From a virus: DNA of 64,000 nucleotides. A program made the position numbers and the translations under genes. Each line of letters opens with the position of its first letter. Within the stretch, counting starts at the first letter, position 1. The notes beneath the pieces are model-generated. The model was given only the letters and a program-made list of their open reading frames with translations. It made no database searches and was not told where the DNA came from. The stretch spans positions 1-64,000 of the IMG/VR virus record IMGVR_UViG_3300037156_000269; one strand, written 5' to 3'. Of the stretch, positions 16,069 through 43,803 are shown piece by piece.

Positions 16069-16082
16069 TTTTAGGGAGATTT

Positions 16083-28885: not shown

Positions 28886-29115
28886 TGGCAGGCTTAAGAG
28901 TTTTCTCAGGCGGGGCGTGTATCGTTCTTGGTGGAGGCGGGTCTCCGGGCCCGATTTTCCCACCCGTACCGAATCCCGTAACAACGGACCAAAGTGCCAC
29001 GGAGCGCGCTCTCGGGCTTCCGCAGATCTTTCACATGACCGTCGCGTACCAGGGAATTTTGAAGTTAACAATGGGAGTCCCAGCAAATGAACTCGACCAA
29101 GAGCCCCTTCCTTAA
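28885..29115 (+). CDS. Small hypothetical protein
   Basis: A 76-residue product whose ATG overlaps the TGA of the fibre gene. Gly/Pro-rich N-terminus (GGACIVLGGGGSPGPIFPP) and a short C-terminal amphipathic part. No identifiable domain. Its end overlaps the start of the next small gene by 29 bp. Probably part of the virion operon. Confidence 0.45.
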   Translation: MAGLRVFSGGACIVLGGGGSPGPIFPPVPNPVTTDQSATERALGLPQIFHMTVAYQGILKLTMGVPANELDQEPLP

Positions 29116-29257
29116 AGGCTTTGAGAAAACTGCCGGCCTTCCGAAGTGGCTTCACGAGATCGGCGAGTCCAAAGCTAAAATCAAAGGCCATAGCAAAAAA
29201 GGCCTCAAGGCTATGATGAGCCGTCGCGGCGTTATTGCCGGAGGGCTTTGCGGATGA
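29087..29257 (+). CDS. 56-residue GFxKTA-tagged protein
   Basis: A short gene starting at ATG 29087. The N-terminus contains FLKGFEKTAG, a clean copy of the tag. The remaining 40 residues are strongly basic (GESKAKIKGHSKKGLKAMM), end in a small Gly-rich hydrophobic stretch, and include Cys near the C-terminus. The TGA overlaps the ATG of the next gene. Its basic charge suggests nucleic acid or membrane contact; function unknown. Confidence 0.55.
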   Translation: MNSTKSPFLKGFEKTAGLPKWLHEIGESKAKIKGHSKKGLKAMMSRRGVIAGGLCG

Positions 29258-30084
29258 TCACGATAGGTTGGGATGCGTTTACAGACGCCACAGCAACATC
29301 GTTTAACGTGTACCGGTCCCTACCGGGCATTACGATTGCGTTCCCCAATACGCTCACTATCGGAGATGTTTTTACCTTTTCGGCCACATCCGTCGATATT
29401 CAGAACATCACATTCACCGCGGTCGACATCGACAGCGTCGTCTCTCAGTTTAACGCGAACGCTCTCGGGGCTTATGCGGTTAAAGACGCCGGCGGCACAA
29501 ACATTCTCATCCGCACAACAGCTACCACAAAAGCCAAGCTCAAGCTTTATGCGTGCACTTTTCTGACCCATATCGGACAAGCCCCACGAACCGTCGTACC
29601 GGCGCTCGAGTGGGCCCTTATCGGCAGTGTTGCTTTTCTTACAAATACTTACAGCTACACTTTCACCGATAGCGACGGCATTGAGCTGGACTCCTACAAA
29701 ATCACTTCTGTCGTGTCCTCGATCGAGTCTCTGCCGTCTCTTATCCAGCGCCCTCAGGTAGGTGCCGGCCTCCTTTGCGCAATCGAGGGAAGGGTCTGTG
29801 ACAGCCAGAATAGGGCAGTCGTAGGACTTGTCATCCGAGCCGAGCCCCGGATCCCAGAAACCTCATCAGACGGACACGGTATCGACTACCACAGAAGCCA
29901 GGTCTGCACTGACGGCTTTGGGCGCTTTTCACTCTATTTGCCAAGGAACGAGACCTATCTTCTCCAAATACCAGATATCGGGTACAATGAGACGATCTGT
30001 GTCCCTGACCTGCCATCGGCCGGGTTCCTAGATGTGATACCGACTTTAGCAGGTAGATTCTCGCCATTTGGAGATCCGCAATGA
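29254..30084 (+). CDS. Beta-domain virion protein upstream of portal
   Basis: A 276-residue product. I choose ATG 29254 (ATGA overlap, GGAGGG upstream) over an in-frame TTG at 29248. The N-terminal fibronectin-like segment (WDAFTDATATSFNVYRSLPG) is followed by a beta domain and a C-terminal carboxypeptidase-regulatory-like domain (CAIEGRVCDSQNRAVVGLVI, FGRFSLYLPRNETYLLQI). That last domain resembles the end of the protein at 19297-19923. It overlaps the portal gene by four bases. Probably a virion decoration or connector-associated protein. Confidence 0.5.
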   Translation: MITIGWDAFTDATATSFNVYRSLPGITIAFPNTLTIGDVFTFSATSVDIQNITFTAVDIDSVVSQFNANALGAYAVKDAGGTNILIRTTATTKAKLKLYACTFLTHIGQAPRTVVPALEWALIGSVAFLTNTYSYTFTDSDGIELDSYKITSVVSSIESLPSLIQRPQVGAGLLCAIEGRVCDSQNRAVVGLVIRAEPRIPETSSDGHGIDYHRSQVCTDGFGRFSLYLPRNETYLLQIPDIGYNETICVPDLPSAGFLDVIPTLAGRFSPFGDPQ

Positions 30085-31964
30085 GTGGTCAGGATACACA
30101 AGTCGATCCAAGTCAGCGAATGGGCGATCCGCGAGCAAAGTCGCGGTATCCGTCGCCGTTCTTTGATATATCGCAGCAGTATATCCCGCCCACGATCAAA
30201 GAACTCTTCAAGTGGGTTTACTTCTACGCAACTAACAACTCATTTCTAGGCCCAGCTCTAGGGAAGATTGCACGCTATCCGATCACGGATTTAATTCTCG
30301 AAGATGTGAACGAAAAGCTGGTCGAGTATTGGAAAGTTCTCCTCAACAACACCATGCAGATCAAAGCCTTCAACATGGAGTCCAACCTTGATTTGGTCAC
30401 CTACGGGAACTGTTTCGTTACAATCAGCTACCCGTTCTCACGCTTCCTCGAGTGTGCTGCCTGTAAAACGCGCACCCCATGGAAGGCGGCTAAGAAGAAA
30501 ATTGATAACTTAACTTTTAAGTTATCTTGCCCGAAATGTGGTGCGAACGAAAAAGCGAAAATCATCGATGTTCCGTTTAAGTCGGTCGAGAACCTTCGCC
30601 TCATTCGCATTAATCCAGAGTACATCGACATCAAGTACAACGAGGCCTCGGGCAAACACACCTACCTCTACGCGATCCCAGATAAACTGCGTCGCATGAT
30701 CATGGCCGGCGACCCGGATATCCTCGAAGATACCCCAATGATTTACATCGACGCCATCAAACAGCGTCGTAAAATCAGACTGTCTCCGCAGAACTTGTTT
30801 CATTTGAAAACTCCAACCCTCGCCGGAAAAGACATGGGCTGGGGGATGCCGCGCATTGCCGTGGCTCTCAAAGATCTTTACTACTTCTACACTCTCCGTC
30901 GCGGGCAAGAAGCCATTATCAACGAGCACATTGTGCCCTTTGACGTTATCTTCCCCCAAGCCAACGGAAAGATGGACCCCTACGTCCACACCGATCTCAC
31001 AAGCTGGCGCGAAGAGATCAACAAGCAACTGGCCTCACGGCGCAGAGACCCGAACTACAAAGCCGTCCTCCCATTCCCGATCGGACATGAGCGTATTGGC
31101 GGTGATGGCAAGTCAATGATGCTCACCCCTGAGCTTGATTTCCTCTCAAAAACCATCGTAGGCGCCTGCGGGATACCGCAGGAGTTCATCTACGGCGGCA
31201 CCATGAACTGGACTGCGTCGAGCGTGTCGCTCCGCACTTTAGAGAACGATTTCCTTCACCACCGCACGCAACTCTTGCAGATGAATATCTGGCTCGTTGA
31301 ACGCTTGCGTTTGTACCTAGGAATGCCGGCACCAAAGACCATTCGCTTTAGCGACTTCAAGATGGCCGACGACATTCAGAAACTCCAGGTCATGGTCGGT
31401 ATGGCTGCGGAAAAGAAAATGCCATATGACGAGATCTATCTTGAAATGGGTCGCGACCCGAAAGTCATCCAGCGTAAACTTGAAGACGAAGCGAATCTCG
31501 ACGCCAAAATCATGGAGATCACAGTTCTTCGTCAGGCCGAGGCACAGGCAAAAGCTCAAGCACTCACTCAGCGCTTTGCCGCAAGTGCCGCAGCCGATGC
31601 TGCGAATCCAATTGGTCTCGGAGACGACGTTACCGAAACAGGACCGGGAGCCACACCAGAACAGCAAAAAACCATTGCCGTCTGGGCGCGGAAACTCATG
31701 GGGCAGCCGCCAGAACAAGTCGCCGCAGCACTCGATCGCCTCGAGCAACAAGATCCAGACTTCGCGCACGCACTCAAAGACGCAATTCTCACTCTACAAC
31801 AAGGTAACGGCCAGGTGCCGGATCCAGTAGCACCCGAAGCTCCGGAGAAGAAAAAACCAGCAGCTAAAAAGGCCGCTACCGGTAAAGCGCCTAATGTAAA
31901 CGTGAACGTCAACATGAAACCTCTACCAGAGCAGCGCGCGCCTCGCCGTAAAGGAGCTGTGTAA
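30081..31964 (+). CDS. Portal protein with embedded zinc ribbon
   Basis: A 627-residue protein. The core has portal features: an aromatic N-terminus, a central DMGWGMPRIAVALKDLYYFY segment, GHERIGGDGKSMMLTPE, then VGACGIPQEFIYGGTMNWT and a long helix (RTQLLQMNIWLVERLRLYLG), as in portal stems. It would form the dodecameric ring through which DNA enters and leaves the head. Unusually, a four-Cys ribbon (CAACKTRTPW and LSCPKCGANEK) is inserted near residues 127-155. The C-terminus is Ala/Gln/Lys-rich and disordered, with VNVNVNMKP. Overlaps upstream and downstream genes by four and one bases. The terminase gene is 22 kb away, an atypical spacing. Confidence 0.7.
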   Translation: MSGQDTQVDPSQRMGDPRAKSRYPSPFFDISQQYIPPTIKELFKWVYFYATNNSFLGPALGKIARYPITDLILEDVNEKLVEYWKVLLNNTMQIKAFNMESNLDLVTYGNCFVTISYPFSRFLECAACKTRTPWKAAKKKIDNLTFKLSCPKCGANEKAKIIDVPFKSVENLRLIRINPEYIDIKYNEASGKHTYLYAIPDKLRRMIMAGDPDILEDTPMIYIDAIKQRRKIRLSPQNLFHLKTPTLAGKDMGWGMPRIAVALKDLYYFYTLRRGQEAIINEHIVPFDVIFPQANGKMDPYVHTDLTSWREEINKQLASRRRDPNYKAVLPFPIGHERIGGDGKSMMLTPELDFLSKTIVGACGIPQEFIYGGTMNWTASSVSLRTLENDFLHHRTQLLQMNIWLVERLRLYLGMPAPKTIRFSDFKMADDIQKLQVMVGMAAEKKMPYDEIYLEMGRDPKVIQRKLEDEANLDAKIMEITVLRQAEAQAKAQALTQRFAASAAADAANPIGLGDDVTETGPGATPEQQKTIAVWARKLMGQPPEQVAAALDRLEQQDPDFAHALKDAILTLQQGNGQVPDPVAPEAPEKKKPAAKKAATGKAPNVNVNVNMKPLPEQRAPRRKGAV

Positions 31965-32317
31965 TGTCACGTAGCTTTCTGAGCACCGGAATGGATGAGG
32001 CCGCTCACTTTGAAAAGAGCCCCGTAGCTGAGGGATTTGTTGCCGGCCTTAAAGCAGCGCTCCTCGGAGCGCCCGTTGGCGCAGCCGTTCAAGCTCTTCG
32101 CGGTAAAGACGCGCTCACCGGCGCTCTACTTGGAGCTGTAATTCCAGGACTTCTCGCCGGACTTGCCAAAGGCGGCACGCGAAAACTTGAGAACTTAAGC
32201 ACCGAAGCAGACCTCCGCTACCACGCGCAAAATATCAAAGATCGTGAACCCATGTTCTTCATGCCTCCACGCCAACAGCTCGGCCGATATTTCAGCCGGC
32301 GTTATGACGGGAGCTGA
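31964..32317 (+). CDS. Small Gly/Ala-rich membrane-active protein
   Basis: A 117-residue product overlapping the portal stop (TAATG). The N-terminal FLSTGMDEAAHFEKSPVAEG may be a divergent tag. The central region is hydrophobic and glycine-rich (LKAALLGAPVGAAVQAL, LTGALLGAVIPGLLAGLAKG), like glycine-zipper segments that insert into membranes. A basic tail follows (PRQQLGRYFSRRYDG). Could be an ejection protein or membrane pore component acting at infection; inferred from composition only. Confidence 0.5.
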   Translation: MSRSFLSTGMDEAAHFEKSPVAEGFVAGLKAALLGAPVGAAVQALRGKDALTGALLGAVIPGLLAGLAKGGTRKLENLSTEADLRYHAQNIKDREPMFFMPPRQQLGRYFSRRYDGS

Positions 32318-32320
32318 GTC

Positions 32321-32533
32321 ATGTTGATTCAAAAAGCTAAAGTCGAAAGCCGAGTTTTTAACTTAGATGATGTGGGCGACAACAACGCTTACAACGACGT
32401 TCTCGATAACCCGGCTGTGCGCGTCCTCGAGAAGAAATGGATCAAGCACACGGAAGTCGAGCAGTCCGGAAAAGACCGGACTGAGGTCACCGAGAACCAT
32501 ATTTATTTGGAGTGGGAAACATGTTCACTTTAG
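32321..32533 (+). CDS. Small hypothetical acidic protein
   Basis: A 70-residue product starting three bases after the previous stop. Strongly charged (VFNLDDVGDNNAYNDVLDNP, KHTEVEQSGKDRTEVTENH) and ending in a short beta strand. It overlaps the start of the next tagged gene by 13 bp. No motif recognised. Confidence 0.45.
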   Translation: MLIQKAKVESRVFNLDDVGDNNAYNDVLDNPAVRVLEKKWIKHTEVEQSGKDRTEVTENHIYLEWETCSL

Positions 32534-32772
32534 GGTTTGAAAAGATTGCTATACGCAGAAGCACAGCCCAAAGGGCTTGGAAAAAAGCTGGTAAATTAGG
32601 TGGCAAGCTTTACGCAAAGGCTAAAAGAAGCACCTCTCTCCCGAAGGCTGATGCCCTCCATCAAGAAGCTTTGCGATTGAATCAAAGGATGATGACTATT
32701 TCTTTAAGGCAGTTGGCCCGAGACCTCCACCCATCAAAACCCGCGTGGTCTAAAGAACTGAAGAGGAAGTAA
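32521..32772 (+). CDS. GFxKTA-tagged basic protein
   Basis: An 83-residue product from ATG 32521. The N-terminus MFTLGFEKIAIRRS carries the tag with Ile in place of Thr. The body is very basic and helical (RAWKKAGKLGGKLYAKAKRS), ending in DLHPSKPAWSKELKRK. The stop TAA overlaps the next ATG (TAATG). It is the first of four coupled tagged genes to 33899. Charge suggests nucleic-acid contact; role unknown. Confidence 0.55.
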   Translation: MFTLGFEKIAIRRSTAQRAWKKAGKLGGKLYAKAKRSTSLPKADALHQEALRLNQRMMTISLRQLARDLHPSKPAWSKELKRK

Positions 32773-33173
32773 TGTTCACTTTGGGTTTCTCAAAAACCGC
32801 AGCCTTCGACCACAATAACCAGGGTCTGGAATTTAAAATGTCCGACATGGGTAGTGGTAACGTCGGAGCAGGCGGCATGGCCCCCAGTGGTATTCCCTCC
32901 TACCAGCCTTTTGACAATAACAAAGAGGGTGGAGGCCAGAAGCTGAGTCGCAAGGCCCGTGCCCGCATGGCCATCAATGCCATGTACAAGTTCAGCTCCG
33001 GGATGTCGGACGCAGGACTTTCAGATAGTGGCGGATCTGATATTGCGTCAGGTACCGTTGATCAGTTAAAATGGACTTCTCAGAACGGGCCCACTCTCGA
33101 GCAAGAAGCCGATGACCGTAAAGAACAAAAAAACCGCCGCAAGGCCTACCTTAAATCGAGGATACGCGAATGA
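32772..33173 (+). CDS. GFxKTA-tagged protein
   Basis: A 133-residue product starting MFTLGFSKTAAFDH. After the tag comes a Gly/Met/Asn-rich region (KMSDMGSGNVGAGGMAPSG), then a basic helix (KLSRKARARMAINAMYKFSS), an acidic Gly/Ser loop and a basic C-terminus (DRKEQKNRRKAYLKSR). No transmembrane segment, unlike some other family members. Coupled to neighbours by TAATG and ATGA overlaps, so made together with them. Confidence 0.55.
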   Translation: MFTLGFSKTAAFDHNNQGLEFKMSDMGSGNVGAGGMAPSGIPSYQPFDNNKEGGGQKLSRKARARMAINAMYKFSSGMSDAGLSDSGGSDIASGTVDQLKWTSQNGPTLEQEADDRKEQKNRRKAYLKSRIRE

Positions 33174-33502
33174 GCTTTACAGATGGATTTTTTAAACTTG
33201 CGGCCGAACCGGTTGTCTTCAGTGCTCTCGCCAATGCCGCGAAAAAAGGACTCTCCCACGCAGGCGGATCCACAATCAAGGATGCCCTGAAACTTAAAGG
33301 CCTCAGCCACATCGGCGAAGCCGTTAAGAAAAGCGGTGGTCTTGGAAAAAGCTTCACCACTCAGGCCGGCCGCGAAGCCTTAGCTGAGGGCGTCGGTAAA
33401 GCAGCTCCATCTCTTGGCGCGGCGGCAGCCTATGGTGTAGGTGCTAAAAAAGTTTACAATAAAGTCTCTGAGAACGATAACCGCGGACAGGGTGGGTACT
33501 GA
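33170..33502 (+). CDS. GFxKTA-tagged Gly/Ala-rich protein
   Basis: A 110-residue product starting MSFTDGFFKLAAEP, a variant of the tag with Leu for Thr. The body contains Lys/Gly-rich helices (NAAKKGLSHAGGSTIKDALK) and near the C-terminus a hydrophobic Gly/Ala stretch (APSLGAAAAYGVGAKK), followed by a polar tail ending GQGGY. This layout of tag, basic middle, hydrophobic segment and polar tail is shared with the products at 33502, 42823 and 43336. Confidence 0.55.
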   Translation: MSFTDGFFKLAAEPVVFSALANAAKKGLSHAGGSTIKDALKLKGLSHIGEAVKKSGGLGKSFTTQAGREALAEGVGKAAPSLGAAAAYGVGAKKVYNKVSENDNRGQGGY

Positions 33503-33714
33503 TGTTCACTTTAGGGTTTGAGAAAACAGCTGGCCCCGCTATTGCTGAAAACTTGTTCAACGACCGCCTAAAGCGTGTAGGACACAGCATCGCTCGTAAA
33601 ACCAAAGATGTTGCCAAGCACGTCGTCAAAAACCGCAGAGATTATCTGTTTGGCGGCGGGGCTGCCGGCACGATCGGCACAGCCATCGGTGTAAACCGAA
33701 AAAAGGATAAATAA
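33502..33714 (+). CDS. GFxKTA-tagged small membrane-type protein
   Basis: A 70-residue product starting MFTLGFEKTAGPAI, the consensus tag. The middle is basic (NDRLKRVGHSIARKTKD), and the C-terminal YLFGGGAAGTIGTAIGVN is a short glycine-zipper-like membrane segment capped by NRKKDK. The ATG overlaps the previous TGA and the stop overlaps the next ATG. Role unknown. Confidence 0.55.
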   Translation: MFTLGFEKTAGPAIAENLFNDRLKRVGHSIARKTKDVAKHVVKNRRDYLFGGGAAGTIGTAIGVNRKKDK

Positions 33715-33899
33715 TGTTCACCAAAGGCTTCAAAAAACAAGCAGACGCCCCACCGATCATGCCCACCGCGGCTCAAGGTAAAGCTTTCCGCAAAGGCATG
33801 AATCAAGACGTCTCCGTCTCCCAAGGCTGGCAGAACATCAAGAATGAAGTCGGCAGTCTCTTTGGAGGCGCCCCTAACGTCGGAAAAATGGGCGGCTGA
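33714..33899 (+). CDS. GFxKTA-tagged small protein
   Basis: A 61-residue product starting MFTKGFKKQADAPP, with Gln in place of Thr. The rest is soluble and mixed charge (AAQGKAFRKGMNQDVSVSQG), ending GGAPNVGKMGG. It is the last gene of the tagged run; a minus-strand terminator begins right at its stop. Confidence 0.5.
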   Translation: MFTKGFKKQADAPPIMPTAAQGKAFRKGMNQDVSVSQGWQNIKNEVGSLFGGAPNVGKMGG

Positions 33900-33930
33900 T
33901 AGCTAAAAACGAGGGCACACCGCCCCCGCT
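33900..33930 (-). terminator. Minus-strand terminator with TTTTTAGCTA tail
   Basis: On the minus strand a GC-rich GGGC/GCCC hairpin is followed by GTTTTTAGCTA. It closes the minus-strand gene at 33936-34403. Confidence 0.55.
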
Positions 33931-33935
33931 GCAAA

Positions 33936-34403
33936 TCACCACGCCGAAGCGCTACTACGGTTCCAGCCGCTATCAAACGGACTGTTGTTGCTGCTACTTC
34001 CTTGATTCCACAGAGGCTGCTGAGGGCTAGATGCTGCCGGTGATGCCGCAGGTCCAACTCCACTCTTGTTGTAGAATACTCCTGGAGTTGAAATGTCCAC
34101 TCCTCGTCCATGCTTGTTCATTAGCGCTGCGCTGATGCCAGCAATAATCATCGCGCACAGCTCCACCAAAAACTTAGATATCGCGATCTCAATCGCCTGC
34201 TTGGAAAACTCCATAAACTTCCCAAGAACCCCTGCCATGAGCTCTACGAACTTGTCGGCTATCTTGCTCCCCGCCGATGCCGCTCTGCTCGCCTGCGTCC
34301 GATAATTCTTCACAAACTCACTCGGAACAAACTTCTCTGTTTCAGACTCCTTCACTGTCGCCCCACCCCATTGAAACTCCTCCTTGCCAACTGTAATCTC
34401 CAT
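33936..34403 (-). CDS. Accessory cassette protein with hydrophobic helix
   Basis: A 155-residue product from ATG 34403 behind GAGGAGAAC. Charged N-terminus (MEITVGKEEFQWGG), then helical segments with a hydrophobic stretch near residues 75-92 (ISKFLVELCAMIIAGISAAL). The C-terminus is disordered and Ser/Pro/Asn-rich (PAASPAASSPQQPLWNQGS). It has its own promoter (34452-34480) and terminator, between plus-strand virion genes. Could be a membrane-associated host-interaction protein; no family recognised. Confidence 0.5.
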   Translation of the reverse strand: MEITVGKEEFQWGGATVKESETEKFVPSEFVKNYRTQASRAASAGSKIADKFVELMAGVLGKFMEFSKQAIEIAISKFLVELCAMIIAGISAALMNKHGRGVDISTPGVFYNKSGVGPAASPAASSPQQPLWNQGSSSNNSPFDSGWNRSSASAW

Positions 34404-34451
34404 CCAGTTCTCCTCGTGCTGAAATACGATACAATCATCTGTACCGGTAAA

Positions 34452-34480
34452 CTTATGCCAGAAATTGTTTTGTTTTTGCC
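34452..34480 (-). promoter_or_regulatory. Minus-strand bipartite promoter
   Basis: Minus strand: GGCAAA, 17 bp, CATAAG, with TTTCTGG before the -10. The -35 lies within AGGCAAAAACAAAA, repeated upstream of the next minus-strand gene. Confidence 0.75.
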
Positions 34481-34486
34481 TGGGCG

Positions 34487-34572
34487 AGTTAGAGTCGTTT
34501 TTGACTCTAACTGAATTAGTGGCAGATCTGTCGCTAATTCAGTTCCTTAGATATATGATTCATGTATCTAAG
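34487..34572. repeat. Three consecutive inverted repeats
   Basis: Perfect 10-bp stem at 34487-34512, a 9-bp stem at 34511-34542 sharing two bases with it, and a 27-nt palindrome at 34546-34572. They fill the gap between the end of one minus-strand gene and the promoter of the next. They lack a U tract on the minus strand, so they may be operators or RNA-stability elements rather than simple terminators. The last one has a covarying relative at 34895-34921. Confidence 0.6.
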
Positions 34573-35086
34573 CCAAACGTAGGTGCCGAATACCCTTCTG
34601 AGCCGCGAGTGCCGCGCCAGCAAGACTGGCTGTTTTGTTGATGGATGGGATAGCCTCCAAAACCAGGCTCTTAAACTCATGAAATTCAGACCTCAAAGCA
34701 TCGTGGTCTGCTCTAGGGACAGTATTGACACTCCTGTTTTCTTTTACAAATCTGCGCAGCTCTGTGCGGAAAGCTACTGCCTGAGGGCTCCTAATATAAA
34801 ACGCAAAATTTATCATTGCATCCTCCGTCCACAAAGTGAGGTCCTCTCTCAGTCTGTCTATGCCAAGCTCAGCCTTATGGGCTGTCAGGAATTCCTTAGG
34901 TACACGATTCGTGTACCTAAGCTCGTCCATTTCCTCGCGGTGCTGATTATAGGCATTCCACAGAGAATTCTGCCCGCACCCCAAACCGATTCCTATCTGC
35001 TTGTTCGTGCACACCAGAACAGAGCCTACGGCAATCATCGGCACACTTAGCCCTCTAAACCCCCAACGAACCAGTTCTACGTTCAT
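34568..35086 (-). CDS. Membrane-anchored accessory protein
   Basis: A 172-residue product from ATG 35086 (AGGAGATTT upstream). N-terminal hydrophobic segment (LSVPMIAVGSVLVCTNKQIG), then a helical charged domain (LREDLTLWTEDAMINFAFYI, AVAFRTELRRFVKENRSV). The RSPQAVAFRTELRRFV part faintly recalls Bro/Rha-type phage regulators, but I cannot support that assignment. The C-terminus has NKTASLAGAALAAQKG. The stop overlaps a palindrome, and a second version of that palindrome lies inside the gene. Divergently transcribed from the RNA polymerase gene. Confidence 0.5.
   Translation of the reverse strand: MNVELVRWGFRGLSVPMIAVGSVLVCTNKQIGIGLGCGQNSLWNAYNQHREEMDELRYTNRVPKEFLTAHKAELGIDRLREDLTLWTEDAMINFAFYIRSPQAVAFRTELRRFVKENRSVNTVPRADHDALRSEFHEFKSLVLEAIPSINKTASLAGAALAAQKGIRHLRLA
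34895..34921. repeat. 27-nt palindrome, covarying copy
   Basis: CTTAGGTACACG and CGTGTACCTAAG flank ATT. Compared with 34546-34572, several bases differ but almost all changes are compensated on the other arm, so the palindrome rather than the sequence is conserved. Confidence 0.6.
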
Positions 35087-35143
35087 AAATCTCCTCTTGT
35101 CTTACCTAGACTTTTAGAAGCACCTAATCGTGCTACCAATCTT

Positions 35144-35172
35144 CTTATGCCCGAAATGCTTTTGTTTTTGCC
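35144..35172 (-). promoter_or_regulatory. Minus-strand bipartite promoter, divergent from RNA polymerase
   Basis: Minus strand: GGCAAA, 17 bp, CATAAG, with TTTCGGG before the -10. Its -35 overlaps the -35-like TTGCCT of the divergent plus-strand promoter of the RNA polymerase gene, so the two may compete. Confidence 0.7.
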
Positions 35173-35195
35173 TAACGCGTCACGGCTGCTATAGA
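35168..35195 (+). promoter_or_regulatory. Plus-strand promoter of the RNA polymerase gene
   Basis: TTGCCT, 16 bp, then TATAGA preceded by TGC (extended -10). The expected start point is within a few bases of ATG 35205, so the mRNA may be leaderless. Confidence 0.5.
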
Positions 35196-35204
35196 ATGGG
35201 GTCT

Positions 35205-38200
35205 ATGCGTACATTTTCCGGTTCCGACCAGTTCCAAGAATTGCAAAAAGTCGTCCTTGATTCCTACTCCAAGCTTTTCCCTGTGGAGAAAAACGGCTTT
35301 CGTTTAGAGCTCGGTAAGATGTGGCTGGACGACGAGGCTGTCGAGCCTGGAGACTTCACGACGCAGAAAAAGGTGAAGCTTGCCGGCAACACGTGGGGCG
35401 CGCCGCTTTACGCATCTCTTGTCCTCAAAGATGCTGACGGAAAAATCGTCGATCACTTAGAGAAAACTAGACTTGCTACCATCCCCAGACTTACCCCCCG
35501 CGGCTCCTACATCGTAAAGGGCAACGAGTATCAGGTTGCAAACCAAATGATCCGTAAGCCAGGTGCCTACGTGGTGAAGTCGCAAAAGGGCGACCAGTTT
35601 AAAGGCATGCTCGCCCTCACCGGCGATCGTCAGCAAAACTTCGAAGTTCACTTTGATACGACGACCAACAAGTACAAAGCAAAGCTCGGACAGTCCTTTA
35701 TCCCCCTATACCCACTCCTGAAATCCTTGGGCGCGAGTGACAAGGAAATGGTTTCTGCGTGGGGAGAGAAGATCTTCACAGCGAATAAATCCGAGCGACC
35801 GACCGATTATTTTAAGCTCTCCGAGAAACTTGCCAGGGCACCGCGTACCGACAACCAACAGACAGCTATTGAAGCCATCCAGGCTTACGCAAAAACGGCC
35901 AAGGTTGATCCTAATATCACCAAGCTCACAATGGGTCATGCTTACGAGAACCTAAGCCACGGCCTCTTGCTGGACACCTCAAAGAAAATTCTTAGCAGCT
36001 ATCAGGGCAAAACAGAACCGGACGATCTCGAGAACCTTTTGTTCAAAGAGATCCGCTCTGTTGAGGATATGCTTCAAGATAGATTAGGAAGCAAAAAAGA
36101 ACAAGATGGTCTAAAGCGAATGCTCACACGCCACCTTGGGCGCAAGACATCCATCAGATCTCTCATTGATTTTAAGAAGCTCACAAGTCCTGTGGAGTCA
36201 TTCTTTACGTCTGACAACAGAACAGCTACCAGTGAACAGTACAACCCCATTCACATGATCGCGGAGCAAAATAAGCTTACCATACACGGCACAGGCGGTA
36301 TCACGAGTTCGCACGCTGTAAGCCAATCTCTTCGCGAGGTGCATCCATCGCACATCGGATTTATCGATCCTGTGCATACACCGGAATGCTATGACGGCAT
36401 GACTGAAGTTTTTACCAAGTCTGGGTGGAAAAAGTGGACTGATGTGACGGTCTCTGACAAGTTTGCTTGCCGCATCGAAAACACTTTGGAATTTCACGAA
36501 GCCAGTGCTTTCCACAAAAGCCATTACAAAGGACTGATGTACGGGTTCAAAAATAACAAAGTAGATTATTTAGTAACACCCAATCACAGAATGTTTGTAC
36601 AGGCAAATGATCCGAGCTCAGAGTGGAGAATCGAGACTGCCGAAAAGACGCACCTAAAAAATAGAAGACTTACCTCAGCGCATTTTCCGTTTTCTGGTGA
36701 CACTTCAGCTACTCACTTCACACTTGAAAGAGTTGGCGGCTCTTCGTCGACTGTAAATTTCGACCGAATAAATATAGAGGACTGGTGTGAACTGGTTGGA
36801 TGGGTTTTGTCAGAAGGTTGTGTTGTAAATAAGAAATACGGATCAAAGTATTCTTATGCGCTTAAAATCGCACAAAATGAAAAAGCCAATCCAGAGAAGT
36901 GCGCCAGAATAAAAGCACTGCTATCTAGACTGCCCTGGAGATGGTGTCAAAATACTGCAAAAACTGACTTCATAATTGGAGTTAAGCAACTTGCCATGCA
37001 ATTCAAGGAACAAGGTTATTGCTACGAAAAGTTCATTCCAGAATATCTCTTCGAGGCTCCTGTGCAGGCGCGAGAGCGCATGCTGGAAGCTCTTTTGTTA
37101 GGGGATGGGCGCACATTTAGTCACAGAGTTACTGGAGTTTCTTACGAGCAAAAAGTCTACACTACCACAAGCAAGGAGTTGGCCATAGGCGTAGAAAGAC
37201 TTGCCATAGGTCTAGGATATGGGGTCAAGACAGCCGTCTATCAAGATAACCGTCAAGAGCACTATAGGGACATGTTTGAAATCCGTCTTTTGAGTCACGG
37301 TGATAGAACACTTCGTGCAAATTATTACTACACTACAGATTTCAATGACACAGTTTATTGTGCTACAGTGCCTGGCAGCCTCCTTCTTGTTAGACGAAAC
37401 GGCAGCGTTCCGATCTGGCTCGGCAATAGTGATAAAACGGGCACGACACTGCATTTAGCGAGCGCTGTTGTAAAAGATGGGCGCAACATTCGCACGTTTG
37501 TTCGCAACGTAAAAACAGACAAGATGGAGCTTCTAACTCCACAGGAAATCTACTTTAAGAACGTGGCGTTTCCAGATGAGTATGTTGGTGGCAAGTTCAA
37601 GAACGCATCTGGCGTTCGTATCCAAGCGCAGGGTAAAGTGGACATGGTTCCATCCCACAAGGTGGACTACGCCCTTCCGCACCCGACAGCTCTTTTTAGC
37701 CACTCAACAAACCTTGTTCCATACCTGAAAAACGACCAAGGTAATCGCGCCATGATGGCAGCAAAAATGATAGGACAAGCCATTCCGCTTGTCGACCGCG
37801 AAGCGCCGCTTGTTCAAACTGCTATGCCAGACGGCAAATCATTTCATGAAGAGATTGGCAGACAGTTTTCGATCCAGTCACCCCATGCTGGTAAAATCAC
37901 AGCCGTGCACTCGGACTACATCATGGTCGATAAGACCAAGATTCCTGTTTATAATAACTTCCCCCTTAATCAAAAAACTCAAATGCATCACACAGCTCTC
38001 GTGAATGTGGGCGACGAAGTTAAAAAAGGTCAGCTCTTAGCTGATTCGAACTACACGAAAAACGGCACTCTCGCTATTGGCAAGAACCTCACCGTGGCCT
38101 ACCTGCCGTACCCTGGCTACACCTTTGAAGACGGTATCGTCATTACTGAGAGCGCCGCTAAGAAACTCTCGGCCGAGCAAAACTATCGTCATACTTTTAA

Positions 38201-41200
38201 GCTTGAGCCGAAAAGAAAAGAGACGGGCCTTCGCCGTTTCTTGAGTTATTACCCAAACACCATGACAAAAGATCAAGCATCGCACTACGAGTTGGATGGT
38301 GTGATCAAAAAAGGCACTCGAGTCAAATCAGGACAGATTCTCATCACAGGCATGAACTACGCCGCACACTCACCAGAGAACATGACACTCAACCGCCTCA
38401 ACAAGGCTCTTGCTCTCCCGTGGTCCGACGCCTCTGTGAAGTACACAGGCGAATTCGAAGGTACTGTCACAGACGTAGTGAAGCGTGGAGACCAGATTGA
38501 CGTGTTCGTGAAGTCTATTGAGCCTGCGCGCGAAAGTGACAAGCTCTCCGGCGTTCACGGTAACAAGGGAGTCATTACAAAAATCATCCCCGACAGCGAT
38601 GCTCCGCGAACAAAAGACGGCAAAATCCCCGATGTTTTCTTAAACCCGCACGGCATCATTGGGCGTATCAACGTAGGCCAGATCTATGAGTCGGCCGCAG
38701 GAAAGATTGCCCAAAAGACTGGGAAGCCGCGCATTGTTCATAACTTTGATTCTCATGACACTAATAAACAAATCACCGCCGACCTCAAAGCTCATGGAAT
38801 TTCGGATGTTGAAGAGATGGTCACCCCTGACGGCAAGTCCTTGGGTAAAGTCCACGTCGGTGTCCCGTACATTCTGCGCCTCGCTAAGACTGGTAAAACA
38901 GGCTTCAGCGCGCGCATGCCGGGCCAAGGCTACGACGTAAACCTTCAGCCTGTAAAGGGCGGTGAAGAGGGAGCAAAGGCGCTCGATCAGTTGACCTTCT
39001 TCTCAATGCTCTCGCACGGGGCAAAGAAAAATCTTCTTGACGCTCACGTGAAGTCTGAAAATAATGACGAGTTCTGGCACGCAATCGAGATGGGTAAGAT
39101 CCCGCCAACACCACAGCCGAGCTTCGCCTTTAACAAATTCATCGCTTTACTTAAAGGTGCTGGCATTAACGTCGACAAACAGGGCAGCGAATTCCACCTG
39201 GCCCCCATGATGGACAAGGACACACTCAAAGTTAGTAAAGGAAAAATCTCTGATGCTAGGTTCCTCTACGGCAAGAACAACGCCGAGATCAAAGGCGGAT
39301 TCTTTGATACGTCCATCACTGGTGGGTTGGCGGGAAAGAACTATGGCCATCTGGAGCTTGCCGAGCGCATGGCGAATCCGGTATTTGAGAATGCAATCAA
39401 AGCGCTCACAGAAATCAAGGGACCGCAGTACGAGCATCTCGTCGCCGGAAGACTTCACGTAACCCCAGACGGGAAGCTTACACCAACATCCGATGCGAAA
39501 ACTAAAACAGGCGGCGAAGGCGTTGCGGCCCTACTCCGGCACATCGATGTCGACAAGAGCCTCTCGACCTATAAAGCCCAGATCCGGAAAGTTAAAACCG
39601 GCGCCGATACTGACAAGCTAAACCGAAAGATTCGCTACCTCACAGCTCTCAAAGAACTGAATCTCTCACCCGAGGAAGCCTATACGCGTAAGCTTGTTCC
39701 CGTTGTACCGCCAATCTACCGACCCATTCAGGAGATCCCTGGACGTGGCCGTGTCGTAGCACCACCGAACTTTCTTTACCAGAACCTAGGAATTCTTACA
39801 GAAGCTCACCATCACCCCGTCATGAAATTCTTAGGCGATGAGGAGAAAGCGCAGCTTCGCGAAGAAACTTACAAAGCCACCCGCGCCGTGGCCGGTCTTG
39901 AGCCCGTTCTCACTCGCGGAAAAGACCAGCCTATCGAGGGGTTCCTGTCGCAGATCACAGGATCTGCCCCTAAACAGGGGTTTTTCCTAAATAAACTCAT
40001 CACCAAAAAACAAGATCTCGTTGGCCGCGGTGTCATCACAAACGGCCCCGATCTGCATATGGATGAAATCGGGATTCCAGAGAAAATGGCTAAATCCATC
40101 TTCCGCCCATTCACCGTGAGAGAGTTTACACAGTCTGGGTATAAGCCAGATGTTGCTCGCCGAGAGATCGATGAGAACACACCTCTCGCACGAAAGATGC
40201 TTGAGAGTGCTATGAAGAAACGCACGGTCCTCATGAATCGCGCGCCCTCGCTTCACAAGTTCTCAATCATGGCATTTAAACCGAAGCTCTCGAGCGGTCT
40301 CGCGGTTAAAGTTCCGCCCCTTGTTTTCAAAGGGTTCAACGCCGACATTGACGGAGATGCCGTCTCTCTCCACGTTCCTGTCTCAGAAGAAGCTCTACGT
40401 GAATCCACCAAGATGTTCCCATCGAACAATTTGTGGAAGCCTGGAACCGGCGAACTCATGACAGTCCCGACCCAAGAAGCTGCGATCGGTCTTTATTTTC
40501 TGTCTAAAACAGACAAAGGTCGTGCGGAGATTAACAATCTAATCCCCGCAAAATATCATGTGAATACGCAGCTCACATCCAAAGGAGCCGCTGAACTTTA
40601 TGACCGCATAGCCAAGGATCTTCCTCATCAGTTCCCAAACATCGTTCACGCCATGAAGCAGCTCGGTGACAAGCATGCCTATGAAGTGGGCTTCACCGCA
40701 AGTGTCGCTGACCTAGCTGTGGACACCAAAGCGCGCGACGCGATCTTTAAACACGGAGATCAGGATGCAGCAAAGCTTCGCCTAGCCCACAAACCAGGGC
40801 TCGAGCGCGATAACAAAATCGCCGCCATTTATGAAAAAGCCGCTCAGGATTCCTACAAAGGCATCAAGGAGCAGATGAAAAATAGCGGATCAAGCTTCTA
40901 TCACATGATCGCTTCAGGAGCCCGAGGCAAAGACAACCAGCTCATGCAGATGGTCTCGGCCCCAGGTATCGTCATGGACGCGAAAGACCGAAAGGTCCCA
41001 GTTCCATTAAACAAATCTTATGCTGAAGGTATCACCACATCCGATTACTTCATGGCCTCCTACGGAGTTCGTAAAGGCATGATGGACAGATCCCTTCAAA
41101 CTGAGAAGCCAGGCGCCGCCAACAAAGACATCATGGCCGTTGCCGGCGATCACGTGGTTTCAGAAAATGATTGTGGAACAAAACGCGGAGTCGAGCTTCC

Positions 41201-42335
41201 AATTACTAGCCCGGATGTTTACGACCGATTTCTCTCACACGACCAGCACGGCCACAAACGCAACGAACCGGTCACTCCTCAGCTCATCTCCGAGCTCGGG
41301 AAAAAACACGTGAAAACCATCAACGTGCGCACACCTCTTCGGTGCCTAGCGCCCAAAGGGCTTTGCTCACACTGCTTTGGGATAGATGAGCACGGTCACC
41401 TGCCTCAAATCGGTGATAACATAGGAGCCAAAGCAGGACAGACGATGACCGAGCCAATGACGCAGTTCGTCATGAAGACATTTCACACTGGCGGCGTCTC
41501 CTCGGGAGCACCGACTTCGAAAGGATTTGAGCGTGTCTCTCAGCTCCTTAATATGCCAAAGTACGTCTCTGGCCAGGCTGCACTTTCTGAGGTTTCTGGA
41601 AAGGTATCGAAGATATCAAAGACACCTGCAGGTGGCTTCGACATTCACGTTGGAGACCAGATCCACACCGCTCGCCCAGGCGTCACACCAAGCGTGTCCG
41701 TTGGTGACAGCGTCCACAAAGGCGACAAGCTCACCGACGGCGTAATCAAGCCACAGGAGCTTTTACGCCACAAAGGAATGTTGGCCGCGCAGAACTACAT
41801 CGTGGATGAGCTCAAGGACACCTACAGCCAGCAGGGGGTTCCGATGCAACGCAAGATCTTCGAGACCGTTATCCGTGCCGCGACGAACAATACCCGTGTC
41901 GTTGAGGCACCAAAACACTCCAACTTTATAGTCGGCGACGTGATCCCATACACCTCGGCTGTTCACTATAACGAGACCAGAAAAGTCTCCGTACCTGTGA
42001 GTCATTCGTCTGGCTACTTCCTGAAAGAGAATGTCGGCAAACTTCCGCAGTTCCACGAGGTAACAGACAAAGATCACTCTTATCTCCGCGAGATGGGTCA
42101 CACGCACGATATTGAGGTCCTCAAAGATCCGCTCATTCACGCACCTATGATAAAGGGCATTACTCATGTTCCAGCTCTCCGCAAAGACTGGATGGCTCAG
42201 CTCGGTTACCGCTATATCAAAGAAGCCCTCACAGAAGGTGCGGCGCAATCTTGGAAATCAAATGTCGAAGGAACACACCCAGTGCCGGCGTTCGCGTTCG
42301 GCGCGTCGATGGGGAAAAAAAAGGAGCATTACTGA
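35205..42335 (+). CDS. Single-chain beta-beta' DNA-directed RNA polymerase, intein-containing
   Basis: A 2376-residue product from ATG 35205 (an in-frame ATG lies at 35196). The first half is beta-like: GFIDPVHTPE, GYTFEDGIVITES near 970 and SGVHGNKGVITK near 1116, matching conserved beta blocks. The second half is beta'-like: DLVGRGVITNGPDLHM, NRAPSLHKFSIMAFKP near 1678, and catalytic NADIDGD at 1712-1718 with all three Mg-binding Asp. The bridge-helix region is SYGVRKGMMDRSLQT, a Cys cluster CLAPKGLCSHC lies near 2047, and the trigger-loop-like TQFVMKTFHTGG near 2088. Beta and beta' are fused as in a few bacteria; large-phage versions are usually split. No alpha, omega or sigma is visible in the window. 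An intein of 347 residues interrupts the ETPE block. It probably transcribes phage genes. Confidence 0.9.
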   Translation: MRTFSGSDQFQELQKVVLDSYSKLFPVEKNGFRLELGKMWLDDEAVEPGDFTTQKKVKLAGNTWGAPLYASLVLKDADGKIVDHLEKTRLATIPRLTPRGSYIVKGNEYQVANQMIRKPGAYVVKSQKGDQFKGMLALTGDRQQNFEVHFDTTTNKYKAKLGQSFIPLYPLLKSLGASDKEMVSAWGEKIFTANKSERPTDYFKLSEKLARAPRTDNQQTAIEAIQAYAKTAKVDPNITKLTMGHAYENLSHGLLLDTSKKILSSYQGKTEPDDLENLLFKEIRSVEDMLQDRLGSKKEQDGLKRMLTRHLGRKTSIRSLIDFKKLTSPVESFFTSDNRTATSEQYNPIHMIAEQNKLTIHGTGGITSSHAVSQSLREVHPSHIGFIDPVHTPECYDGMTEVFTKSGWKKWTDVTVSDKFACRIENTLEFHEASAFHKSHYKGLMYGFKNNKVDYLVTPNHRMFVQANDPSSEWRIETAEKTHLKNRRLTSAHFPFSGDTSATHFTLERVGGSSSTVNFDRINIEDWCELVGWVLSEGCVVNKKYGSKYSYALKIAQNEKANPEKCARIKALLSRLPWRWCQNTAKTDFIIGVKQLAMQFKEQGYCYEKFIPEYLFEAPVQARERMLEALLLGDGRTFSHRVTGVSYEQKVYTTTSKELAIGVERLAIGLGYGVKTAVYQDNRQEHYRDMFEIRLLSHGDRTLRANYYYTTDFNDTVYCATVPGSLLLVRRNGSVPIWLGNSDKTGTTLHLASAVVKDGRNIRTFVRNVKTDKMELLTPQEIYFKNVAFPDEYVGGKFKNASGVRIQAQGKVDMVPSHKVDYALPHPTALFSHSTNLVPYLKNDQGNRAMMAAKMIGQAIPLVDREAPLVQTAMPDGKSFHEEIGRQFSIQSPHAGKITAVHSDYIMVDKTKIPVYNNFPLNQKTQMHHTALVNVGDEVKKGQLLADSNYTKNGTLAIGKNLTVAYLPYPGYTFEDGIVITESAAKKLSAEQNYRHTFKLEPKRKETGLRRFLSYYPNTMTKDQASHYELDGVIKKGTRVKSGQILITGMNYAAHSPENMTLNRLNKALALPWSDASVKYTGEFEGTVTDVVKRGDQIDVFVKSIEPARESDKLSGVHGNKGVITKIIPDSDAPRTKDGKIPDVFLNPHGIIGRINVGQIYESAAGKIAQKTGKPRIVHNFDSHDTNKQITADLKAHGISDVEEMVTPDGKSLGKVHVGVPYILRLAKTGKTGFSARMPGQGYDVNLQPVKGGEEGAKALDQLTFFSMLSHGAKKNLLDAHVKSENNDEFWHAIEMGKIPPTPQPSFAFNKFIALLKGAGINVDKQGSEFHLAPMMDKDTLKVSKGKISDARFLYGKNNAEIKGGFFDTSITGGLAGKNYGHLELAERMANPVFENAIKALTEIKGPQYEHLVAGRLHVTPDGKLTPTSDAKTKTGGEGVAALLRHIDVDKSLSTYKAQIRKVKTGADTDKLNRKIRYLTALKELNLSPEEAYTRKLVPVVPPIYRPIQEIPGRGRVVAPPNFLYQNLGILTEAHHHPVMKFLGDEEKAQLREETYKATRAVAGLEPVLTRGKDQPIEGFLSQITGSAPKQGFFLNKLITKKQDLVGRGVITNGPDLHMDEIGIPEKMAKSIFRPFTVREFTQSGYKPDVARREIDENTPLARKMLESAMKKRTVLMNRAPSLHKFSIMAFKPKLSSGLAVKVPPLVFKGFNADIDGDAVSLHVPVSEEALRESTKMFPSNNLWKPGTGELMTVPTQEAAIGLYFLSKTDKGRAEINNLIPAKYHVNTQLTSKGAAELYDRIAKDLPHQFPNIVHAMKQLGDKHAYEVGFTASVADLAVDTKARDAIFKHGDQDAAKLRLAHKPGLERDNKIAAIYEKAAQDSYKGIKEQMKNSGSSFYHMIASGARGKDNQLMQMVSAPGIVMDAKDRKVPVPLNKSYAEGITTSDYFMASYGVRKGMMDRSLQTEKPGAANKDIMAVAGDHVVSENDCGTKRGVELPITSPDVYDRFLSHDQHGHKRNEPVTPQLISELGKKHVKTINVRTPLRCLAPKGLCSHCFGIDEHGHLPQIGDNIGAKAGQTMTEPMTQFVMKTFHTGGVSSGAPTSKGFERVSQLLNMPKYVSGQAALSEVSGKVSKISKTPAGGFDIHVGDQIHTARPGVTPSVSVGDSVHKGDKLTDGVIKPQELLRHKGMLAAQNYIVDELKDTYSQQGVPMQRKIFETVIRAATNNTRVVEAPKHSNFIVGDVIPYTSAVHYNETRKVSVPVSHSSGYFLKENVGKLPQFHEVTDKDHSYLREMGHTHDIEVLKDPLIHAPMIKGITHVPALRKDWMAQLGYRYIKEALTEGAAQSWKSNVEGTHPVPAFAFGASMGKKKEHY
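36387..37427 (+). mobile_element. Intein with LAGLIDADG endonuclease domain in the RNA polymerase
   Basis: A 347-residue in-frame insertion from Cys395 (after HTPE) to Asn741, followed by Ser as the +1 residue. Splicing blocks: CYDGMTEVFTKSGWK at the N-terminus, TPNHRMFV (TxxH, block B), and VPIWLGN at the end. The penultimate residue is Gly rather than His, a known but less common variant. Two LAGLIDADG-like helices are visible: ELVGWVLSEGCV and MLEALLLGDGRT. The DNA is more AT-rich than flanking polymerase sequence, consistent with recent transfer. Removal would rejoin PE and SDKTG, rebuilding the conserved beta motif, so splicing is needed for activity. Confidence 0.88.
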
Positions 42336-42556
42336 TGAAGCTCAGCGAAGTTTTTGAAAAGTATCCAAAGGGCACCGAGGTCAAGCGAGTCTTGAACTAC
42401 ACAGAACCTGAGAGGTCTTTCACAGTGTTTCGTGGCAAGGTAGACGAGAAGAAGGATGGTTTATTCTGGCTGATCGACTACGCAGAACCTCCTGTCCCGG
42501 GTCTTCTTGGTCTTACTGGCAGACCGCAAGACTCTGATGGATGGGAGCTACTCTGA
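42335..42556 (+). CDS. Small hypothetical protein downstream of RNA polymerase
   Basis: A 73-residue product; the ATG overlaps the TGA of the RNA polymerase (TGATG). The fold looks like a small beta protein (EVKRVLNYTEPERSFTVFRG, DGLFWLIDYAEPPVPG). Its TGA overlaps the ATG of the next tagged gene. It might modulate or accompany the polymerase, but only position supports that. Confidence 0.45.
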   Translation: MKLSEVFEKYPKGTEVKRVLNYTEPERSFTVFRGKVDEKKDGLFWLIDYAEPPVPGLLGLTGRPQDSDGWELL

Positions 42557-42804
42557 TGTTTACAAAAGGTTTCACAAAATCAGCAGAAGTCCTCGACACC
42601 GCAGAACGCAAAGAACTTCCTTCGAAAGATTTCGCACTCAAAGGCGCTAAAAAAGGCAAAGCCAACGAAGGTAAGTACCCGATTCCAGACGAAAGTCACG
42701 CGAGAAATGCACTTTCTCGCGTGAGTCAATTTGGGTCTCCTGCAGAAAAAGCAGCTGTCCGCGCCAAGGTCCATGCTAAATACCCGAACATCGGTAAAAA
42801 ATAA
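42556..42804 (+). CDS. GFxKTA-tagged protein with YPIPDESHARNAL domain
   Basis: An 82-residue product starting MFTKGFTKSAEVLD. The C-terminal 40 residues (YPIPDESHARNALSRVSQFG and AAVRAKVHAKYP) match a small domain that I know from many phage and prophage proteins, where it occurs at the ends of head or protease-related proteins. Here it is attached to the tag. This is the only family member in the window with a recognisable partner domain, supporting a virion role. Confidence 0.6.
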   Translation: MFTKGFTKSAEVLDTAERKELPSKDFALKGAKKGKANEGKYPIPDESHARNALSRVSQFGSPAEKAAVRAKVHAKYPNIGKK

Positions 42805-42822
42805 CTGATAAAATGAGGCACT

Positions 42823-43329
42823 ATGTTTACACACGGTTTTAAAAAAACAGCCGCAGCTCCCGGAGTCGCGTCCATGGCCAGCAAGGCCAAGGGCCTCCTT
42901 CCAAACTTCATGAAGGCAAAAGCCCCCGTTGCCGCCGTCGCCAGTAAAGTAAAGGGCAACGTGGCCGCCTCTGCAGCCGCACGCGGCGCCTCCAAGATCG
43001 GAGACAAAGGGTTCACCTCCGGGTTTAGCGGTTCAGCCAATATGCACGACAAAATCAAAACCATGCCCAACGCTCAACAAGGCCGCATAGAAAAAAGCTA
43101 CGCTAAATCCAAAGGCGTCAAAGTCGAGGATCGCGGTAGCCAGTTTGAAAAAGCACAACGTAAAGCAAAAGCACCTGCTTCAGCACCATCTGCTCCTGCA
43201 GCGAAGCCCGCGGACGGTGGAAGTTTCATGTCGAAGATTAAGCCAGCACATGCAGCTATTGGGGCCGGTGGCGCAGCGGCAGGGTACTTGGCGGCCAGTT
43301 CCGGTAACAACAACCAACAGCAAAGGTAA
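42823..43329 (+). CDS. GFxKTA-tagged basic Ala-rich protein
   Basis: A 168-residue product starting MFTHGFKKTAAAPG. It is extremely Ala/Lys/Gly-rich (AKAPVAAVASKVKGNVAASA) with a long basic region and a Pro/Ala linker (KAPASAPSAPAAKPADGG). The C-terminal hydrophobic segment (AAIGAGGAAAGYLAASSG) ends NNNQQQR. Composition is histone-H1-like plus a membrane-type tail. Likely DNA-binding or packaged; inference only. Confidence 0.55.
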   Translation: MFTHGFKKTAAAPGVASMASKAKGLLPNFMKAKAPVAAVASKVKGNVAASAAARGASKIGDKGFTSGFSGSANMHDKIKTMPNAQQGRIEKSYAKSKGVKVEDRGSQFEKAQRKAKAPASAPSAPAAKPADGGSFMSKIKPAHAAIGAGGAAAGYLAASSGNNNQQQR

Positions 43330-43335
43330 GTGAAA

Positions 43336-43803
43336 ATGAGCTTCTGCTGTGGGTTTGAAAAAACATCAGCTTCCATCCCAGGCGCGATTGGCGCAGTTCG
43401 TGGTACAGCCGCGAAAGTAACTAAAGGCATCTCAGCCGGTATCAAAAAGTTCGTCGGTGGGCAGAAGGCCAAGGGCATCTCCAGCTACCGATCAGCCTCT
43501 GGTGTTGGCAGCAAGATGGCTCCCGGCGAAGGATTAGCCGCAGGCCGAGCTCGTCGCGCACAAGCCTCTGGCAAAGGTAGCTTCACGCCGAAGGCCAACG
43601 ATGCTCGCGAAACAAAAGCTCGCTCAGACGTGTATGCGCGCAAAACGAAAGTAGAAGATGCCAAGTCTGGCAACAAACCGTCATTCGCTCGCAAGCATCC
43701 GTTTATAACGGCCGGCGCTCTGTATCTTGGAACCAAGTCCGCTCTCAGCGGTGGTGACAAAGAACAGTCCCAGCAACCGCAGTACATCGGCCCTCAGCAA
43801 TAG
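43336..43803 (+). CDS. GFxKTA-tagged basic protein
   Basis: A 155-residue product from ATG 43336 (a GTG at 43330 is an alternative). The N-terminus MSFCCGFEKTSASIPG has the tag with two Cys before it. Basic Gly/Ala/Lys body (ISAGIKKFVGGQKAKGISSY), then HPFITAGALYLGTKSALSGG as a hydrophobic segment and a Gln-rich tail (QSQQPQYIGPQQ). Same architecture as the previous gene, so the two are likely paralogues. Confidence 0.55.
   Translation: MSFCCGFEKTSASIPGAIGAVRGTAAKVTKGISAGIKKFVGGQKAKGISSYRSASGVGSKMAPGEGLAAGRARRAQASGKGSFTPKANDARETKARSDVYARKTKVEDAKSGNKPSFARKHPFITAGALYLGTKSALSGGDKEQSQQPQYIGPQQ

Follow-up and report, generated by a model that had tools for sequence, protein, structure and literature searches.

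A shared N-terminal peptide on unrelated proteins of a large phage: a candidate capsid-targeting tag ending in a predicted K-x-A protease site

Introduction

Short N-terminal sequences that send proteins into a phage capsid have been described in a few systems. In bacteriophage T4, according to the portion of the study available to us, ten N-terminal residues are enough, with positions 4 and 7 serving to target the protein and positions 8 and 10 governing cutting (PMC9026906), and the internal proteins of T-even phages are described, in the accessible part of another paper, as a diverse anti-restriction set whose sole common feature is this capsid targeting sequence (PMC3012670). For DarB of phage P1, the available text states that the N-terminal 30 residues suffice to send a reporter into the capsid (PMC9024508). 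In the giant phages phiKZ, 201phi2-1 and SPN3US, as far as the excerpts of two reports go, cutting takes place after S/A/G-x-E or A-x-E, and gp53 and gp54 have 15 N-terminal residues in common (PMC5694885, PMC10052503). Here we analyse a stretch of 64,000 nucleotides (the window), bases 1-64000 of the 175,117-base IMG/VR virus record IMGVR_UViG_3300037156_000269 (G000), in which unrelated open reading frames (ORFs) begin with one and the same short peptide, hereafter the tag. We propose that the tag is probably a capsid-targeting propeptide with K-x-A as a predicted cut site of the prohead protease.

Results

Genes were called with a simple codon-usage script, which gave 164 calls for the whole record, two of them duplicates at stretch edges. 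In 12 of these 164 proteins the pattern GF.K.[AS] begins no later than residue 16, compared with a mean of 0.08 and a maximum of 2 in 200 within-protein shuffles. Together with the ORF at 32521, missed by the gene caller, and that at 367, whose tag (GFREKTA) is one residue longer, this makes 14 tagged proteins in the record; 11 are in the window, nine of them in the interval 29087-43803 (Table 1), and three start beyond the window, at 67061, 68223 and 82420. An earlier sequence-only reading of the window had listed at least ten such proteins around the portal and RNA polymerase genes, with further copies at 367-618 and, on the minus strand, 61739-61915. The N-termini it quoted are all in place with plausible start contexts, both outlying copies are present, and the search of the rest of the genome that it proposed supplied the three ORFs beyond the window. 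In-frame GF.K.A strings at 53553 and 56128 are not N-terminal and were dropped.

Table 1. Tagged proteins of the window and other features discussed in the text (positions in the record)
Feature	Position	Strand	Length (residues)	N-terminus, match or remark
Tagged protein	367-618	+	83	MAAFVTGFREKTA, one extra residue in tag
Tagged protein	29087-29257	+	56	MNSTKSPFLKGFEKTAG; same-tag relative L010:9000
Tagged protein	32521-32772	+	83	MFTLGFEKIA
Tagged protein	32772-33173	+	133	MFTLGFSKTAA
Tagged protein	33170-33502	+	110	MSFTDGFFKLAA; body common to four tagged relatives
Tagged protein	33502-33714	+	70	MFTLGFEKTAG
Tagged protein	33714-33899	+	61	MFTKGFKKQA
Tagged protein	42556-42804	+	82	MFTKGFTKSA; DUF6582-like body (below Pfam cut-off), phrog_16160
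Tagged protein	42823-43329	+	168	MFTHGFKKTAA
Tagged protein	43336-43803	+	155	MSFCCGFEKTSA; body common to three tagged relatives
Tagged protein	61739-61915	-	58	MNFLKGFRKVA
Site-rich protein	20668-21771	+	367	11 [FLIVM]-x-K-x-A sites, 1.0 expected; far from head module
Portal-like protein, untagged	30081-31964	+		label from the earlier reading, used to find relatives; no PHROG match
Fused beta-beta' RNA polymerase, untagged	35205-42335	+	2376	Pfam RNA_pol_Rpb2_6 1.5e-49, Rpb1_2 1.8e-26
Protease-like protein	69674-71527			phrog_18299 (head maturation protease), 5.8e-7
Capsid protein	74459			phrog_2522, 2e-12

Written out more fully, the consensus reads M-x(0-6)-F-x-x-G-F-x-K-[mostly T/V/I]-A; its usual length is ten residues. 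In a set of 58 tags, taken from ORFs of at least 40 residues in G000 and its relatives with a ribosome-binding-like sequence at the start, phenylalanine stands three residues before GF in 57, though this position was absent from the search pattern (G, F, K, A/S); in the remaining one, L060:517, M replaces F, and the match may be due to chance. What follows the tag is unrelated, as the earlier reading had it: among 11 of the 14 G000 proteins, none of 55 pairs of tag-stripped bodies is related at an expectation value (E) of 0.01, compared with 10 of 55 when the tag is kept. One protein of a relative (L026:18653-18997) carries a second tag-like GFQKAA ahead of a DUF6582-like body and resembles two fused tagged genes.

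Several tagged genes are tandem and overlapping, as they might be if the similar starts came from paralogues of recent origin, or from an element of RNA or of translation. Paralogy of the bodies was rejected for lack of a related pair, and the same tag precedes unrelated bodies in other phages; the 58 tagged proteins fall into 39 body clusters, some probably divided by divergence. An RNA or DNA element as the source of the tag was rejected on codon variation: at the fixed positions all four glycine codons, both phenylalanine and both lysine codons are used, and the alanine codons vary too, indicating that selection acts on the peptide. This explanation is thus barely credible.

Nor is the tag a motif of phages in general. 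Searched at the DNA level, GGNTTYNNNAARNNNGC occurs 15 times in G000, compared with 4 for the reversed control, and 127 times compared with 10 over 11 clade records (of which G009 and G010 appear to be one phage); two distant relatives have 4 compared with 2. A strict DNA form of the tag matched 33 stretches in 2.9 million viral contigs. Fifteen lie in six contigs of the same clade and 18 in 18 other contigs, and among these 18 only 4 begin an ORF of at least 40 residues. The possibility, raised with the sequence-only reading, that the motif is equally frequent in unrelated phages did not materialize.

The end of the tag recurs in the genes for head assembly. In nine untagged proteins of the head module (67.4-75.4 kb of the record), [FLIVM]-x-K-x-A occurs 32 times, compared with 7.1 expected, a count reached by none of 500 shuffles. 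No excess was seen in 50 other plus-strand proteins of G000 (23 versus 22.5), in 88 minus-strand proteins (24 versus 26.3) or in the bodies of tagged proteins (4 versus 5.0). When all 20 residues were tested at each place, K alone was enriched at P3 and A at P1 (numbered back from the predicted cut after the alanine); L was enriched at P1 as well, but less so (12 versus 5.7). Control motifs in which E replaced K, or G replaced A, showed no excess in head modules. The excess was repeated in the head modules of six relatives (25-35 sites, 5.2-7.3 expected), of Vibrio phage D69 (34 versus 4.4) and of Salmonella phage Arash (34 versus 4.3), while the other genes of these phages had none; Bacillus phage G showed a weaker one (10 versus 2.9). 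Over 31 sites, the capsid protein excluded, orthologues retained the site K at a fraction of 0.78 compared with 0.40 for other K, and the site A at 0.76 compared with 0.44.

The same count was made in T4 as a positive control. In genes 67, 68, 21, 22, 23 and 24, [LI]-x-E occurs 46 times, compared with 22.2 expected (0 of 300 shuffles), and K-x-A shows no excess (5 versus 3.6). Twelve other T4 genes gave 34 compared with 26.7 (18 of 300 shuffles), and the reversed motif 38 compared with 26.8, so that the contrast is softer in that control. The blind counting statistic recovers the known L/I-x-E protease site of T4.

The motif is also present in the major capsid protein. Alignment of the G000 protein with its relatives places it at QVKTA|QAG, where A is residue 27. 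The relatives comprise 86 loci, 83 of which cover the site and give 58 distinct N-terminal segments; K at P3 and A at P1 are present in 57 of these (the sole exception is L131), whereas the flanks P2, P4 and P5 are conserved in 34-40% only. Such a pair of fixed positions amid freely varying ones has the look of protease subsites. The alanine at P1 may resemble herpesvirus assemblin sites, a likeness for which a literature search gave nothing usable. The relation of this protein to a solved HK97-fold capsid protein is indicated by a profile match to 6wkk (gp27 of Bacillus phage G) at 1.8e-98, gp27 itself being among the 11 rows of the profile, and by a match of the G000 query to gp27 at 2e-8.

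Repeated motifs in scaffold-like proteins could be binding sites, if the tag were an uncut docking peptide and scaffold, capsid protein and cargo bound a common prohead partner via x-K-x-A helices. The presence of site-rich proteins in Arash particles, described below, would suit such docking. Fixed P3 and P1 with variable P2, P4 and P5 are, however, the pattern of protease subsites; sites are also present in the C-terminal half of the putative protease itself; the proven cut site of T4 behaves alike in the same counting test; and docking has no need of a separate F-x-x-G-F part. We therefore regard docking as unlikely.

Two proteins outside the head module also have several sites. The 367-residue protein at 20668-21771 has homologues in 6 of 11 records and none in named phages, and is likely, judging from its sites, a prohead core protein or protease substrate. 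A protein of 722 residues at 49861-52029, of unassigned family, has six K-x-A sites, including LSKSAS and MNKIAA, and is perhaps another protease substrate.

The front of the tag behaves differently from its end. Seven clade-A phages have 222 internal sites in their head modules, and F and G together occupy the tag-equivalent places in just one of these, which makes F-x-x-G-F a feature of the tag and not of the cut motif. Used as a query, the capsid alignment retrieved 249 viral relatives, of which the best 80 were kept, plus three in genome contigs; these were grouped (A-G) by capsid N-terminus and identity. A quick tree of the capsid proteins showed A, C, E and F as single clades, with A nested in B; D and G did not form single clades. 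We then counted hydrophobic-x-K-x-[A/S] within the first 18 residues, head-module proteins included, and found an excess in A (55 of 200, 12.7 expected), B (70 of 335, 22.2), D (44 of 165, 10.6), E (14 of 53, 2.5) and F (21 of 106, 4.5). What leads up to the motif depends on the group. F-x-x-G-[FLM] is present in 33 of 207 proteins in A and 29 of 367 in B, 24 of the latter being F-W-x-G-F; after D had been divided in two, a split made once the patterns had been seen, an L-I-E-K type was found in 15 of 134 proteins of D2 and Y-F-E-K in 6 of 40 of D1. None of these patterns was found in C, E or F, nor in each other's groups, apart from the overlap of A and B (FWxGF is a form of FxxGF). Related clades thus have other leading peptides (FWxGFEK, LIEK, YFEK) ahead of the same K-x-A.

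Homologous cargo carries these different addresses. SNF2-type helicases related to each other at a pairwise E of 1e-40 or better bear three clade versions, starting MFTSGLNKLA in A (L072), MDSFWSGFEKAA in B (L077) and MRYFEKNA in D1 (L118). Their Arash homologue, Gp217, has no tag; it is among 116 proteins in Arash particles, with 1148 spectra, in the part of the proteome report available to us (PMC10585845). NUDIX hydrolases are tagged in three B phages, and a DNA ligase-like protein (phrog_114, 2e-11) and SWIM-domain proteins are tagged in A, one of the latter (L024) with the variant HSFTKTA. Most of the tagged bodies had no match in Pfam, NCBIfam or PHROGs, and a kinase-like look of L026:14909, noted by eye only, was left aside as unsupported.

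The bodies are basic: their median net charge is +9.1 per 100 residues, compared with -0.9 in 108 untagged G000 proteins of 50-300 residues (p 1e-7), in a test whose 14 tagged proteins include 161300, probably a false tag, and leave out 32521, a composition that weakens it. Basic bodies could by themselves bring cargo into the prohead by binding DNA or scaffold, the tag then being a cut site only, and clades E and F often show just M-x-K-x-[A/S] at the N-terminus. Such an explanation hardly accounts for the near-invariant F-x-x-G-F of the tags, its near absence from internal sites and its distinct counterparts in other clades, nor is there any need for helicase, NUDIX or ligase proteins carried as cargo to bind scaffold. 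We hold it to be quite improbable, more so than docking.

The fused RNA polymerase gene is flanked by tagged genes, as would be expected if the tag directed proteins to a phage compartment or to the polymerase. The tag motif is, however, common to head genes and not to the polymerase gene, the polymerase is untagged, and further tagged genes are found in the head module and at other places (67061, 68223, 82420, 367 and 61739); we give such a role next to no chance. The sequence-only reading had suggested a sorting signal, for packaging with the polymerase, for a phage compartment or for removal by a protease. A sorting signal fits; entry into the capsid and removal by a protease both gain favour from the tag's ending, a motif that it shares with the head module and the major capsid protein, and targeting to a compartment found no support. 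The polymerase itself has no tag at its N-terminus in G000 or in five relatives. The distant relative Arash nevertheless packages its own RNA polymerase, a subunit of which is the most abundant virion protein by spectra, as stated in the accessible text (PMC10585845).

Some further features of the polymerase and its surroundings were noted. Between ...VHTPE and SDKTG... the polymerase has, by eye, an intein-like insert of about 390 residues, for which Pfam found no intein model in the fused protein. Its relatives range from 1719 (perhaps incomplete) to 2425 residues, and those of D69 (L021:19968) and Arash (L022:19932) start MPK[KS]AS, which might be a minimal cut site. Large proteins encoded in a row beside the tail genes (8333-17843) have, by eye, N-termini resembling Sec-type signal peptides, which is unusual for tail or head proteins.

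The candidate prohead protease at 69674-71527 also matches phrog_2774 (function unknown) at 2.3e-15, and H101 and S152 are invariant in eight sequences. Directly after the presumed active-site serine, the protease-like protein at L015:5674-7524 has a conserved zinc-knuckle-like C-x-x-C...C, a stretch that D69, Arash and Bacillus phage G share.

Several observations weigh against cutting and packaging. The putative identity of the protease rests on the PHROG matches: no protease family was found by Pfam and NCBIfam at E 0.1, and its alignment with T4 gp21 is very weak (hhalign probability 1%). In that weak alignment a conserved His and a conserved Ser line up with H85 and S140 of gp21, its catalytic residues. 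Structure predictions gave unusable models of the protease domain (mean predicted local distance difference test score, pLDDT, 42) and of the capsid protein (mean pLDDT 31). The capsid protein of Bacillus phage G, outside the 58-segment set, has lost the K. There is no clear N-terminal excess in group C (13 of 130, 6.4 expected, shuffles up to 14) or group G (7 of 54, 3.5 expected); L024, L025 and Arash have slightly more reversed motifs than expected; and some sites are poorly kept in orthologues (0.17 in 71537, 0.44-0.56 in 68424). The Arash homologues of the site-rich head proteins (Gp220-Gp225.1) are all reported in mature particles, which argues against full breakdown of the scaffold, whose fragments should mostly leave; in the part of that report at hand the coverage figures look odd (100% from two peptides) (PMC10585845), and the K of the K-x-A motif is itself a trypsin site. 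Cutting at K-x-A, its position after A, the sufficiency of the tag for packaging and the injection of cargo are all inferred from sequence alone.

Discussion

We favour a capsid-targeting propeptide on the strength of the tag itself, the identity of its end motif with that of the head module and capsid protein, the separate address, its clade versions, their presence on homologous cargo and the basic bodies. In this mechanism the front part, F-x-x-G-F, would be an address docking the protein to the prohead core, and the end part, F-x-K-x-A|, the place at which the phage's own prohead protease cuts. Tagged, mostly small basic proteins would be collected into the prohead during assembly. The protease would then strip about ten residues from each, trim the major capsid protein after residue 27 and break up scaffold proteins at the same motif; the freed bodies would remain with the packaged DNA and probably be injected along with it.

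A wider proposal, whose chances we rate as even, is that a lineage of mostly uncultivated large phages uses one K-x-A code with addresses particular to each clade (F-x-x-G-F, F-W-x-G-F-E, x-L-I-E and Y-F-E), and that the addressed proteins (SNF2, NUDIX, ligase-like and small basic ones) are loaded, unlabelled and injected. If true, the tag would mark out the takeover and counter-defence proteins that are injected, so that these could be listed straight from metagenomic sequence. It would also represent a second address system, seemingly unrelated to the first, with some 14 tagged genes or more in each genome and sister forms among related clades, and would provide a predicted specificity for a protease along with new short packaging tags. 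The K-x-A rule in the capsid protein and head module could be checked in Arash, a cultivated relative.

In the parts of the literature on capsid targeting sequences available to us we found no account of the tag, of a K-x-A code or of clade versions. DarB of phage P1 likewise has an N-terminal capsid targeting stretch; it is one very large cargo, and the available text describes no short motif common to many proteins. In the giant phages, a prohead protease similarly strips N-terminal propeptides from many head and ejection proteins, but it cuts after E, the propeptides are mostly longer than 100 residues, and the excerpts at hand describe no short tag on many unrelated small proteins. Arash and D69 have the same head module and K-x-A in capsid and head proteins, and Arash a virion RNA polymerase; they differ in having no F-x-x-G-F address, in an RNA polymerase that starts M-P-K-x-A-S and, in Arash, in an untagged helicase.

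The closest likeness is to T4 (IPI, IPII, IPIII and Alt, with the gp21 protease). There too, some ten N-terminal residues are found on diverse small basic proteins, two aromatic residues are followed by a cut site at which P3 and P1 matter, and the cut motif is also present in the scaffold and capsid protein. ipII and ipIII start MKTYQEFIAE in the T4 record; by analogy, F2 and F6 of the tag would be the counterparts of Y4 and F7 in T4, while its K8 and A10 would correspond to I8 and E10. As in T4, unrelated proteins share a short N-terminal peptide, 57 of the 58 tags reading F-x-x-G-F-x-K-x-[A/S], whose end is shared with scaffold and capsid protein and would be the protease motif. Unlike in T4, the predicted cut is at K-x-A and not L/I-x-E, the address is another, many more cargo genes are involved, and the tag has no sequence homology to MKTYQEFIAE or L/I-x-E. 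Known here from its sequence only, the system would work like that of T4, yet it falls outside the T4 family.

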